Virus record (IMG/VR): IMGVR_UViG_3300030116_006294
Coordinates: 1 to 23,936 of that record
Direction: 5' to 3' (one strand)
From: a virus
DNA: 23,936 bases
The stretch's first letter is position 1; each line of letters starts with the position of its first letter. Below are positions 3,244-23,244 of the stretch, in pieces. The notes below the pieces were generated by a model, which saw only the letters and a list, made by a program, of their open reading frames with translations, made no database searches and had not been told where the DNA came from. The translations under genes and the position numbers were made by a program.

Positions 3244-3281
3244 TGGACACGCAAGCGGTTTGCCTGTATCGTGTCCGAACA
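3244..3281 (+). promoter_or_regulatory. Promoter copy A, predicting a leaderless mRNA
   Basis: The -35 is TGGACA (3244-3249), the spacer is 17 nt, the -10 is TATCGT (3267-3272), and the ATG at 3282 follows 9 nt after the -10. A start point 6-9 nt below the -10 would leave 0-3 nt of 5' leader. An A/T-rich tract (3221-3243) could serve as an UP element. The spacer holds CAAGCGGTTTG, a variant of an 11-bp palindrome shared with the other copies. Confidence 0.75.
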
Positions 3282-3452
3282 ATGAACGACACGAAAAAAA
3301 CAAAAAACTTTACCGCAAAGCAACTTATCAATCTTGCTAACATGTTAAGGCATGAGGCCGCAATAAAGGACGGAAAAAGTGCAGACTTCAGAAACGCCTT
3401 GCTGGCGTGCGCAGTGAAGCACGAGAGACAGGCCGCATCTCTAAAATCCTAA
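3282..3452 (+). CDS. Small leaderless-type protein, cassette A, 56 aa
   Basis: I do not recognise this protein. It is 56 aa, starts MNDTKKTKNF, is basic, and is predicted mostly helical, with no membrane segment. The ATG sits 9 nt below the -10 hexamer of promoter copy A, so translation probably starts at or next to the mRNA 5' end. The AACAATGAACGA start context matches copies B and C at the other end of the window, and the N-terminus is similarly Lys/Asn/Thr-rich. It forms a two-gene unit with the gene at 3475. The pair sits inside the late structural region with its own promoter, which is typical of a phage moron. Confidence 0.7.
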   Translation: MNDTKKTKNFTAKQLINLANMLRHEAAIKDGKSADFRNALLACAVKHERQAASLKS

Positions 3453-19588: not shown

Positions 19589-19825
19589 ATGGACAAAAAG
19601 ACCGCATCAAAATTTGCGCAAGCACTTGGTTCGCTTGGTAAGGCCGACGTGATCCCTGAAGGATGGGCGACAGCAAGAGAGATCGCCGACAGCCAAGGCG
19701 TGTCCATGCCGCACATGCAAAAAAAGATTCGCGCCCTTGTCGAGTCTGGCACGGCTGAAATGCAGCGGTTCAAAATCAAAACCTCGCGCGGCTTTTATCC
19801 CGTGCCGCATTACCGGATCAAATGA
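19589..19825 (+). CDS. Small winged-helix-like protein
   Basis: This 78-aa protein carries a helix-turn-helix-like stretch WATAREIADSQGVSMPHMQKKIRALVESG (residues about 26-54), followed by a beta-rich wing-like tail ending in PVPHYRIK. That layout suits a small DNA-binding protein. It might be a regulator, but the regulated sites are unknown; the promoter family at 20141, 21598, 22940 and 3244 is a candidate worth testing. It sits between the metallophosphoesterase and another small gene, and its stop overlaps the next ATG (ATGA). Confidence 0.62.
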   Translation: MDKKTASKFAQALGSLGKADVIPEGWATAREIADSQGVSMPHMQKKIRALVESGTAEMQRFKIKTSRGFYPVPHYRIK

Positions 19826-20090: not shown

Positions 20091-20106
20091 CCCTGAAAAA
20101 ACAGGG
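20091..20106. promoter_or_regulatory. CCCTG-A6-CAGGG palindrome (copy B)
   Basis: A 5-bp inverted repeat around six A, 34 nt upstream of the copy B -35. The gap between the two is 34-35 nt in copies B and C and 23 nt in A and D, a difference of about one helical turn. This is the best-formed example of the element. Confidence 0.55.
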
Positions 20107-20140
20107 CCAAAAACTTTTTTCAAAAAAGTAAAATAATCTG

Positions 20141-20178
20141 TTGACAGGCAAGCGGCTTGGCTGTATGCTGTAAGCACA
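20141..20178 (+). promoter_or_regulatory. Promoter copy B, predicting a leaderless mRNA
   Basis: The consensus -35 TTGACA (20141-20146), a 17-nt spacer, and -10 TATGCT (20164-20169) are followed by nine bases and the ATG at 20179. The spacer contains CAAGCGGCTTG (20149-20159), a perfect 5-bp-arm palindrome around G, which could be an operator. The A/T-rich tract at about 20107-20137 could be an UP element. Confidence 0.85.
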
Positions 20179-20409
20179 ATGAACGCAGCAAACAAGACAA
20201 ACCAAATCAAACTCAACGGCACAACATACAACGTCGAGGAGGTAGTAACCACCGAACAACACCGCGCCGAGGGTCGCGTGAACGTAGCAAATCACCGCAA
20301 CCAAGTCGGCATTGTTGCTGACTTAATCCTGCGCCGCCCTAACGGCAAGAAGCTGCACCTCGCCTACACTTTCGCAAACGGACAAACCCAGTATGTCTTG
20401 AGCCTCTAA
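20179..20409 (+). CDS. Small leaderless-type protein, copy B
   Basis: This 76-aa protein starts MNAANKTNQIKLNG, whose codons 5-12 also appear in the gene at 21636. It is beta-rich after the tag, with NGTTYNVEEV and later NGKKLHLAYTFANGQTQYVLSL. That pattern is echoed in the gene at 21257 (DGETYTVTDL ... SGKRVHFTTTKGKTALVSL), so the two bodies look like distant paralogs. No family is recognised. The ATG lies nine bases under the -10, so initiation should occur at the mRNA 5' end. Confidence 0.7.
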   Translation: MNAANKTNQIKLNGTTYNVEEVVTTEQHRAEGRVNVANHRNQVGIVADLILRRPNGKKLHLAYTFANGQTQYVLSL

Positions 20410-20438: not shown

Positions 20439-20909
20439 ATGAATATTTTTGAAATAACCGAAGAGACAACAAACGCACGCGGCGAAACCTATTTGCCGCC
20501 TGTCAATGTCAACAACAAGGAAATCAACGCAACTTTGGTTTTTAGCAAACGGCCAACGGGCAAGAGCCAGACGATCACTTTTCAGGTTGACGCAGTGAAT
20601 GGCAGCTTTGGCGATGAGTGGCATGACACATACAACAAAATTTACGACAGCGAGAAACAGTGGCGCGCCGCGCACGCTCGCTACTTAAAAAAATACGCTG
20701 CACAACAGAACCCGAAAATCAAAATCACAAACAACATCAACCTGATGGCAAGGGCCATCCCATTGGCCTCTGCAATGGTGCACGCTGGCAAAACCTACAA
20801 TGCCAGCCATATCGACGCAGACGGATGGGCTGTTTCTCCGGAAGCTGGCTCCATGTTTCCGCCATGCTGCTTTGAGGTGATAGATCAAAAACCCGAAATG
20901 AACGACTAA
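20439..20909 (+). CDS. Hypothetical protein, 156 aa, early region
   Basis: I do not recognise this protein. It is soluble, with a beta-rich N-terminal half (INATLVFSKRPTGKSQTITFQVDAVNG), a basic helical middle (about residues 70-100, Lys/Arg/Ala-rich), and a C-terminal part with a CC pair (FPPCCFEV). There is no membrane segment. It is the second gene of the copy B operon and starts after an A/C-rich leader. Confidence 0.72.
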   Translation: MNIFEITEETTNARGETYLPPVNVNNKEINATLVFSKRPTGKSQTITFQVDAVNGSFGDEWHDTYNKIYDSEKQWRAAHARYLKKYAAQQNPKIKITNNINLMARAIPLASAMVHAGKTYNASHIDADGWAVSPEAGSMFPPCCFEVIDQKPEMND

Positions 20910-21256: not shown

Positions 21257-21553
21257 ATGCAAAAAGAAATCACCAAGAACGGGTTGCGCATCCTGCGCGA
21301 AGAAATCAACGGGTTCCAGATATGGGAAACCATACCGCGCCGCAATCACATCGGCGGCGTGATGCGCGAGGTTGGCGACGCCGTGACCATCGACGGCGAG
21401 ACGTACACCGTGACCGACCTTGCCGAAGCTGGCGCGCGTTGCCAGATTACAACAAAGCGCGTTGTGGATTACGAAACCGTATCGGGCAAGCGCGTGCATT
21501 TCACAACGACCAAAGGCAAGACCGCCCTCGTGTCTCTCTACAAATACCCCTGA
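21257..21553 (+). CDS. Small beta-rich hypothetical protein, 98 aa
   Basis: This 98-aa protein starts MQKEITKNG. I chose the ATG at 21257, four bases after the previous stop, because an upstream frame from 21149 would run inside that gene. After the tag it is mixed and then beta-rich. Its second half (DGETYTVTDL, RVHFTTTKGKTALVSL) echoes the gene at 20179, so a shared ancestor is likely. No catalytic motif is visible. Its stop TGA lies within the CCTG-A6-CAGG element of copy C. Confidence 0.68.
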   Translation: MQKEITKNGLRILREEINGFQIWETIPRRNHIGGVMREVGDAVTIDGETYTVTDLAEAGARCQITTKRVVDYETVSGKRVHFTTTKGKTALVSLYKYP

Positions 21554-21597: not shown

Positions 21598-21635
21598 TGG
21601 ACAGATCACAGGCAAGCTGCTAGAGTGTCAGCACA
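21598..21635 (+). promoter_or_regulatory. Promoter copy C, predicting a leaderless mRNA
   Basis: TGGACA (21598-21603), a 17-nt spacer and TAGAGT (21621-21626) are followed by nine bases and the ATG at 21636. The CAAGCTGCTAG variant of the operator-like palindrome runs into the -10 here, unlike copies A and B where it is seven bases further upstream. An A/T tract upstream (21567-21593) could be an UP element. Confidence 0.8.
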
Positions 21636-21902
21636 ATGAACGAGCGCAACAAGACAAACCAAATCAAACTTAATGAGGATATTTTACCTGTGACCCCCTC
21701 AATGCAGAAGTTTACAATTCAGGCAAACGCATTCAGCGCGGCTTGCTCATTTCTTCCAAAGCGCGACATACCAAAGACCGCCACAAAAACAACCGTGCAA
21801 TTTCGAGTTTTCCTCATTGAGTATATGGAAAACAACGAGTGCGACGCGATTGGAAATTTTCCCGATATGATTGACTTTGCAGTTTCTTGCTGCAAGCGAT
21901 AA
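21636..21902 (+). CDS. Small leaderless-type protein, copy C
   Basis: This 88-aa protein starts MNERNKTNQIKLNED and shares its first codons with the gene at 20179. The remainder is soluble with a basic middle and several Cys residues (C31, C77, C85, C86). No family is recognised. It is the first gene of a two-gene unit with 21946 and is predicted to be read from a leaderless mRNA. Confidence 0.7.
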   Translation: MNERNKTNQIKLNEDILPVTPSMQKFTIQANAFSAACSFLPKRDIPKTATKTTVQFRVFLIEYMENNECDAIGNFPDMIDFAVSCCKR

Positions 21903-21945: not shown

Positions 21946-22854
21946 ATGAGTATGCACAAGTACGGAATCAAGGGCCGCGAGATCGTGGCAAAAACCTCCA
22001 ACGGAACAATCAACATTAGCACCTTTGGCTGGCTGTATCAGCTTGGTACGCGGTCATGGGAAGAAAACGGAGAGATTGAGCGGCGCGAGGATGCGGTTAT
22101 TGATCTATTCAACAAACGCGCGGTTGATTACACTGACCCCGCAACAGGTCACACGCAAAAGGTTTTGCCCTACGTTATCGAGTCGCACATCAGCAAGTGC
22201 ACACCACTTGACAAGACGGAAGTCTTTCCCGTTCGCGCAAATTGCCCGCGCAGGTTTTTCGTTGAAGGCTGGGGCGAGGCCAAAGGGGGCGAGGAAAGTT
22301 TCGGCAAGCTGGTCGGCTACATTTCACACAACGGCACGCGCTGGGTTTTCAAAACCTCTTACACCAAAAAGATAAAGGTTTATTGTGATGTACCTGTTGC
22401 TGATTCTCATTTCCAAGGAACAGAGTTGCAGGAGGTGGACGCTGTTTTTGGCTTGCACGCAACTGATGACAGCATAGTGCGAAAGGCGACTTACCATTTG
22501 CGCGGGTTGGATTTGACCTTTGAAAGGTACGGCAGAGATGCCAGCGGTGAATTCGATCTCAACCTTAACGGCGAAGAGTTTGCAACCTTACCTCAGCACG
22601 TCAAAGATGATCTGCGCACAAAGGCGTTTCAAATTATTGAGGATCGAAAGAAACGCGAAGAGCAGCGCACGCAAGAACTGCTTGAGATCAAGCGCAAGCA
22701 AAGGCTGGCAGCGCAGCAACGCGAGCTTGCGCAATTAGAACAGGCGCAACGCGAAGCCGAACAGGCCGCCGCCGAGGCCGCGCAAAAGGTCGAGGCCGCA
22801 CGCCGCAACCTGAGCCGCCCAGAGTTGCCGCCGCTCCCCAAGGTTGCCTCTTAA
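21946..22854 (+). CDS. Hypothetical protein with C-terminal coiled coil, 302 aa
   Basis: I do not recognise this protein. Residues 1-210 form a mixed alpha/beta globular part (GWLYQLGTRSWEENGE, GKLVGYISHNGTRWVF). Residues about 228-290 are a long Glu/Gln/Ala/Arg-rich coiled coil. A Pro-rich end (PELPPLPKVAS) follows. I chose the ATG at 21946, after the A/C-rich leader, over a TTG far upstream that lies inside the previous gene. The protein is followed by a perfect hairpin that may end its transcript. The coiled coil suggests oligomerisation or a partner-binding role. Confidence 0.75.
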   Translation: MSMHKYGIKGREIVAKTSNGTINISTFGWLYQLGTRSWEENGEIERREDAVIDLFNKRAVDYTDPATGHTQKVLPYVIESHISKCTPLDKTEVFPVRANCPRRFFVEGWGEAKGGEESFGKLVGYISHNGTRWVFKTSYTKKIKVYCDVPVADSHFQGTELQEVDAVFGLHATDDSIVRKATYHLRGLDLTFERYGRDASGEFDLNLNGEEFATLPQHVKDDLRTKAFQIIEDRKKREEQRTQELLEIKRKQRLAAQQRELAQLEQAQREAEQAAAEAAQKVEAARRNLSRPELPPLPKVAS

Positions 22855-22939: not shown

Positions 22940-22977
22940 TTTACAAACGACAGGCAAGCGGCTAGAGTGTCAGCACA
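22940..22977 (+). promoter_or_regulatory. Promoter copy D, predicting a leaderless mRNA
   Basis: TTTACA (22940-22945), a 17-nt spacer and TAGAGT (22963-22968) are followed by GTCAGCACA and the ATG at 22978. The -10 and discriminator are identical to copy C. CAAGCGGCTAG runs into the -10. Confidence 0.8.
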
Positions 22978-23244
22978 ATGAAGGTAGCAAACAAGACAAT
23001 GACAGAGGAACAAGCACGGCAAAAAATCAATTTAACCGTTGCGGCATTCTGGAGTAACAGAGCGTGCCAAATGTTTCACTCAGCAACAACTTGCAACATG
23101 GGAACATTTATTCCAAAGGGAATCGCAAACCTGAAGATCACAAAAGATTGGCCTTTGAAGCCAGCAACTTTTACTCGCCTCGCGGATGGTGCGAAAATGA
23201 AAATGCACCTTCAAGGCAACAAATTCAAAATCACAAAATCCTAA
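22978..23244 (+). CDS. Small leaderless-type protein, copy D
   Basis: This 88-aa protein starts MKVANKTMTEEQARQK. Codons 4-7 (GCA AAC AAG ACA) repeat those of the copy B gene. It is basic, with an N-terminal helix and a beta-rich remainder (KPATFTRLADGAKMKMHLQGNKFKITKS). No family is recognised. It is predicted to be translated from a leaderless mRNA and forms a unit with the gene at 23272. Confidence 0.7.
   Translation: MKVANKTMTEEQARQKINLTVAAFWSNRACQMFHSATTCNMGTFIPKGIANLKITKDWPLKPATFTRLADGAKMKMHLQGNKFKITKS

Follow-up and report, generated by a model that had tools for sequence, protein, structure and literature searches.

Short orphan genes are numerous in phages, and the question of how open reading frames (ORFs) come to be expressed after their capture remains open. 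The gene at 20179-20409 of the window, by which we mean the whole 23,936-base virus record analysed here (also record G000 of our comparison of start modules), raises this question in a pointed form: what does it mean that its control region and its first codons recur on genes whose remaining sequence is different? An earlier note on this DNA had described four such copies, A to D, and had suggested either that a cassette of control region and start is fused to unrelated proteins, or that the first codons are needed for leaderless initiation. Here we find a block common to these genes that ends inside the gene and is followed by unrelated bodies, and we find the same bodies behind the cassettes of other phages.

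Four genes with a common start

The window encodes a terminase large subunit at 604-2406, and the four copies lie where they had been described, with ATG codons at 3282, 20179, 21636 and 22978. Genes A to D have in common an upstream module and first codons rich in Lys, Thr and Asn; the bodies beyond are unrelated. The features are as follows.

3244..3272, + strand: cassette A promoter, TGGACA-17-TATCGT, overlapped by a 21-bp imperfect palindrome at 3247-3267
3282..3452, + strand: cassette A gene, 56 aa, start MNDTKKTKN
20091..20140, + strand: upstream part of the module of B, inverted repeat CCTG-N6-CAGG and A/T tracts
20141..20169, + strand: cassette B promoter, TTGACA-17-TATGCT, with palindrome ACAGGCAAG-CGG-CTTGGCTGT at 20144-20164 (8/9 pairs)
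20179..20409, + strand: gene B, 76 aa, body recurring in G024 (L093:1238, minus strand) and G014 (L095:5642, plus strand) with other promoters and tags
20179..20217, + strand: N-terminal tag of gene B, MNAANKTNQIKLN
21598..21626, + strand: cassette C promoter, TGGACA-17-TAGAGT, with operator-like site at 21608-21628
21636..21902, + strand: gene C, 88 aa, tag MNERNKTNQIKLN at 21636-21674
22940..22968, + strand: cassette D promoter, TTTACA-17-TAGAGT, with operator-like site at 22950-22970
22978..23244, + strand: gene D, 88 aa, tag MKVANKT

The starts of B and C are nearly identical, as had been claimed, agreeing at 25 of the first 30 positions beyond the ATG (0.83). One refinement is needed: since the G024 ortholog of B reads MTNDSS followed by NQIKLNGTTYNVEEV, approximately the NQIKLN portion of the B/C tag may be native to body B. 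Gene D does keep ANKT, and gene A keeps ATGAACGA within its Lys/Thr/Asn-rich start. The tag of gene C, in the form MNERNKTNQI, is found on two further bodies in G011. A Pfam search of the four window proteins gave no matches. Among the viral contigs searched, no relative was found of the protein encoded at 21946-22851. A gene just upstream of cassette B, at 19589-19825, encodes a protein of 78 aa whose winged-helix/HTH matches are weak (Rrf2, E=0.0025, which is below cut-off); this protein is possibly a regulator.

The block ends inside the gene

We aligned the cassette genes of six records (G000, G003, G011, G010, G028 and G024) on their ATG codons and calculated mean pairwise identity in bins of 12 nt. 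Identity is 0.49-0.76 over the 12 nt immediately preceding the ATG. Within the gene it is 0.64-1.00 in the first bin and 0.61-0.83 in the second, and it drops to 0.38-0.58 in the third and to 0.25-0.36 in the bin at +36. The similarity therefore does run past the ATG, and in each of the six records it stops 24-36 nt beyond the start of the gene.

Beyond this point the proteins differ. When 41 cassette proteins were compared without their first 13 residues, a single one of the 121 pairs from the same phage was alike at E<=0.1, and weakly so (E=0.029); no pair within the window reached this threshold. Full-length homology of the tagged proteins, which would reduce their common start to ancestral similarity, is ruled out by this result, and the reading of a cassette fused to different proteins stands, the more so as the same bodies occur elsewhere behind other promoters and tags. 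Ordinary paralogy, in which diverged duplicates of one ancestor would have kept only their 5' ends, agrees with the observation that only the 5' ends are alike within each phage. We nevertheless consider it very improbable, because bodies are closer to those of other phages than to those of their own: body B, which has no match in its own window, is 86% identical to its G024 ortholog over residues 5-76, behind a different promoter and tag.

Promoter, palindrome and first codons

The promoters of A to D are of the sigma-70 type, with TTGACA, TGGACA or TTTACA separated by 17 nt from TATGCT, TATCGT or TAGAGT, and the distance from the -10 box to the ATG is exactly 9 nt in all four. The window module combines an A/T-rich stretch with this promoter and with an imperfect palindrome of 21 bp, of the type ACAGGCAAG-CGG-CTTGCCTGT. 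In A and B the palindrome begins within the -35 box; measured from the -10 box, its position in C and D is shifted 7 nt downstream. With up to 3 mismatches allowed, the promoter-start pattern ACAGGCAAGCNGCTNGNNTGTNNGCACAATGAA matches the window twice, at C and D, and matches none of 100 shuffled sequences. The palindrome exceeds shuffled sequences (p<0.05) in only 8 of 42 cassette copies, which are related by descent, and its half-sites vary between phages. Further upstream, the inverted repeat CCTG-N6-CAGG is also present at 21548 (C), with variants before A (3206) and D (about 22900). A terminator as part of the module is unsupported: a scan of the region returned 12 terminator-like sites against a shuffled mean of 12.0, none of them listed at these inverted repeats.

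RNA polymerase usually starts 7 nt after the -10 box. With the ATG at 9 nt, this predicts a leader of about 3 nt for the window cassettes; over the whole set, where the ATG follows the -10 box by 6-9 nt in 41 of 42 cassettes, the spacing predicts leaders of 0-3 nt. The first codons, which would then stand close to the 5' end of the mRNA, are unusual in composition. Codons 2-12 of 41 cassette genes contain a mean of 2.17 U per 33 nt; the corresponding mean is 6.96 for 231 other ORFs from these records and 7.10 for codons 20-30 of the cassette genes themselves. They are A/C-rich as well as U-poor, and nearly structure-free: the region from -3 to +42 has a mean fold energy of -1.05 kcal/mol (n=42), against a mean of -5.87 for 128 other ORFs with a minimum length of 120 aa and of -7.33 for more internal parts of the same genes. 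The p-values of these comparisons overstate the certainty, since the copies are related by descent and are not independent data, and the comparison ORFs were called mechanically. The near absence of structure in the first 45 nt disfavours a folded 5' RNA element, for example an antiterminator of the put type.

The -10 spacing and the U-poor, unstructured first codons are compatible with leaderless expression; initiation may require the first codons, and the cassette genes may be early. A role of such codons has precedents in the accessible parts of the literature: CA repeats after the start codon enhance both leaderless and leadered translation (review PMC9031893), and ACA motifs raise initiation in Salmonella (PMC3879156). 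The tag is not limited to leaderless genes, since one G024 gene (L092:11786, minus strand) carries MTNDNNSNQTK behind an A/C-rich leader with no promoter of this kind.

The cassette in related phages

Near relatives of the window phage, found through terminases at 97-98% identity and through pattern matches, carry the same type of cassette. Across the window, G003, G001, G002 and G011, 18 sites were listed, and a gene start lies close behind 17 of them; the exception is the operator site at L040:7012, where the next ATG is 56 nt away and belongs to a leadered gene. Three different genes of G011 start with MNERNKTNQI, MNERNKTNQI and MNEVNKTNEI. The G003 ortholog of the first has the same body (86% over the last 108 residues) and the start MKAANNKLQATK. 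The second (L020:5391) and the G003 gene at L040:5490 have their first ~28 residues in common (79%) and are wholly different thereafter, which indicates that junctions also occur, and that bodies can be swapped, deeper inside genes. In L005 and L006 a nearly identical first promoter precedes different bodies, and one body (98%) stands behind different promoters.

Distant relatives, whose terminases are 57-60% identical, show the same layout in other letters. In G010 the tag MLNGTN is found on four genes, with promoters TTTACA-17-TATATT/TAGATT and the ATG 6 nt after the -10 box; in G024, MTND is found on five genes, two of them with the palindrome ACGAGGCGGCCTCGT; and in G028, MTTTNETK or a close variant is found on 12 genes, L091:3802 among them, as part of a block of about 85 bp with mean identity of 0.73-0.96 per 12-nt bin from -60 to +24. 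The expectation that related phages would carry the module on other genes is thus borne out. Start-module repeats were recognised by eye, from flagged pairs, in 6 of 30 records, and absence among the others says little, as most of the 30 are fragments. Pairs of 5' ends in G023 and G017, antisense pairs in G028 and most pairs in G024 were left out because they looked like repeats within long ORFs or antisense readings, and a search for a second copy beside the one cassette-like gene of G014 found none. Outside the repeat set, two adjacent minus-strand ORFs of G027 (L079:4534 and L079:4641) are alike at 0.89 over 36 nt upstream and at 0.57 over the start (MAKFFG). A long tandem-like array of 'GAAGCAAAACGGCCTCTGTTTTTT'-type units occupies roughly 4900-6600 of L092 (G024, minus strand).

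Wider searches returned little. Terminase relatives were absent from the genome contigs searched for prophages or hosts; neither body B nor the G028 protein L091:3451 had a match in 50,697 phage records; the DNA of the window region had short matches only; and the G028 cassette had a single 37-base match, in its A/T-rich upstream part, to Streptococcus phages. PHROGs gave no matches for 10 of the 12 G028 cassette proteins.

These comparisons bear on whether the shared codons matter at all. Selection might act on promoter and operator only, the codons being shared passively because recombination tracts run slightly into the gene and have not diverged. Tags are indeed heterogeneous in the least homogenised records, G000 and G003, codons 3-4 differ non-synonymously in G000 and G011, and part of the tag shared by B and C may simply be the start of body B. 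Yet the letters of the tag differ by phage while its composition stays the same, with no U in the 24 nt after the ATG in four of the five phage versions examined (the AT-rich phage G010 has 5); the block ends within the same 12-nt range in six of six records; and in G010 identity just past the ATG (0.96) is higher than in any promoter bin. We therefore regard passive sharing as rather unlikely.

Bodies shared between phages

Six families of bodies occur in at least two phages with differing starts.

Family 1 (body B): G000 with MNAANKT; G024 with MTNDSS; G014 with MTENTTT
Family 2 (SDNNR): G003 and G011; G028 at 28%
Family 3 (HGSGQRKTVC): G003 and G028; G024 leadered, without the MTND tag
Family 4 (PQRTSND): G028 and G024
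Family 5 (KPVKTWG): tagged in G028; leadered in G003 and G024
Family 6 (LSDNSKFKKG): G028; G024 with the MTND tag behind a leader

The start thus usually follows the phage and not the body, and with the same genes behind different front ends in related phages, the front end resembles an interchangeable part. There are counter-cases: the tag stays with the body in L040:4277/L020:4169, and in L005:3654/L006:4666 the promoter differs while tag and body are kept together.

Could the tag peptide itself be what is conserved, as a short N-terminus rich in Thr and Asn whose role is to stabilise, target or mark the proteins of the phage? In the four MLNGTN genes of G010 the three variable codons differ only synonymously, which looks like peptide constraint, and the MTND tag that occurs without a promoter in G024 could be read in the same way. 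A role of the peptide alone is not favoured, since the letters differ between phages (MLNGTN, MTTTNETK, MTND, MNERNKTN) and codons 3-4 vary within G000 and G011; moreover, some orthologs of tagged bodies are leadered genes that lack the tag of their phage (L040:7470 and L093:984, minus strand). We judge this explanation quite improbable.

A second, leadered start module

Thirteen ORFs of G000, G003 and G011, picked by their leader motif, have A/C-rich leaders that mostly end in CAGCAAAAGACA-ATG or CATAAAGACA-ATG. Leaders of this kind, without evident Shine-Dalgarno sequence, precede the genes at 20439, 21946 and 23272 of the window, at L040:7089, 7470 and 7776, and at L020:7451 and 7655. The start MTTE is common to L040:7470, L040:7776 and L020:7655, and MNKDT to L040:7089 and L020:7451, on unrelated bodies in each case, and the body of L040:7776 recurs at 20439 of the window with a different leader and start. 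The leadered genes are thus modular in the same way, with the A/C-rich stretch placed ahead of the ATG. This favours a translation signal that may lie either before or after the start codon, and speaks against a role restricted to leaderless mRNA.

A model for the cassette

Taken on sequence evidence, the block is probably an exchangeable 5' cassette that serves near-leaderless expression and that recombination has spread and homogenised. The cassette would begin with an A/T tract, followed by a sigma-70 promoter with an operator-like palindrome between its -35 and -10 boxes, and would extend through the first 6-12 codons; transcription would start 0-3 nt before the ATG. One phage-specific version fronts many unrelated small ORFs. 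Recombination over the repeated block, either homologous or by annealing, would join bodies to the resident cassette or convert them to it, and the same process would keep the copies within a phage alike. A phage regulator would bind the palindrome and switch the whole set together. The U-poor, A/C-rich and unstructured first codons would help ribosomes to start on near-leaderless mRNA without a Shine-Dalgarno sequence, which may be why the cassette reaches into coding sequence. Annealing over the repeated block seems plausible given that RecT genes are present in five of the nine records searched (G003, G010, G011, G024 and G023); G003 also encodes a PD-(D/E)XK exonuclease, a RusA-type resolvase and an SSB-like protein. 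The same search found no RecT match in G028, the record with most copies, which may be incomplete.

It is tempting to go further, although here we are more tentative. The phage-specific combination of operator, promoter, leaderless start and tag might act both as an expression signal and as a recombination address, in a plug-in gene system by which almost any small ORF could be captured, co-expressed and exchanged, the tag being a portable enhancer of leaderless translation. A possible answer to the question of how captured ORFs gain expression is legible from sequence: a common front end that extends across the start codon and is present in as many as 12 copies within one record. Natural swaps of cassette and body serve as controls. 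The system also offers a way to test whether first codons can act as a portable signal for initiation when the mRNA is leaderless. In uncultivated phages, cassette and tag together may mark accessory genes and their correct starts.

Comparison with known systems

The nearest idea in the literature, as far as the accessible portions of these papers go, is that of the PeSLs of T4-type phages (Arbiol 2010; Comeau 2014), in which a promoter module is repeated and tied to gene shuffling between related phages (PMC4503421). Here too the cassette is repeated between non-homologous genes, and the six body families document shuffling between related phages. As described in those portions, a PeSL is an early promoter with a stem-loop that is an intrinsic terminator; in the phages studied here the terminator scan found none in the module, the block runs past the ATG into 6-12 codons, and a spacer palindrome and predicted near-leaderless starts are present.

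The SAS/ESAS repeats of cluster K mycobacteriophages (Pope 2011, PMC3203893) also stand before the starts of genes of different families. According to the consulted sections, they are paired with inverted repeats that have a subcluster-specific consensus, and were suggested as possible recombination targets (PMC3203893). Unlike our cassette, the SAS is a stretch of 13 bases upstream of the start, and shared codons are not mentioned in those sections (PMC3203893); read directly, the 13-base GGGATAGGAGCCC is absent from the positions directly upstream of the window cassette starts. Cluster O mycobacteriophages (PMC4351075) resemble our phages in dyad-symmetric repeats and predicted leaderless phage promoters, but most of their repeats are not at promoters, and the accessible part of that report describes no shared N-terminal codons. 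The CA/ACA enhancers (Martin-Farmer and Janssen 1999, as cited by others; PMC3879156) are similar in that CA/ACA-rich sequence near the start raises initiation, CA repeats doing so also on leaderless mRNA; as presented in the available text they are reporter or single-gene elements, in contrast to a phage-wide cassette. Open papers on leaderless phage modules with shared N-termini, searched with fixed words and available in part, yielded no recognised repeat that crosses the start codon. Set beside these systems, the cassette is real, and it is new in carrying coding sequence and in being phage-specific.
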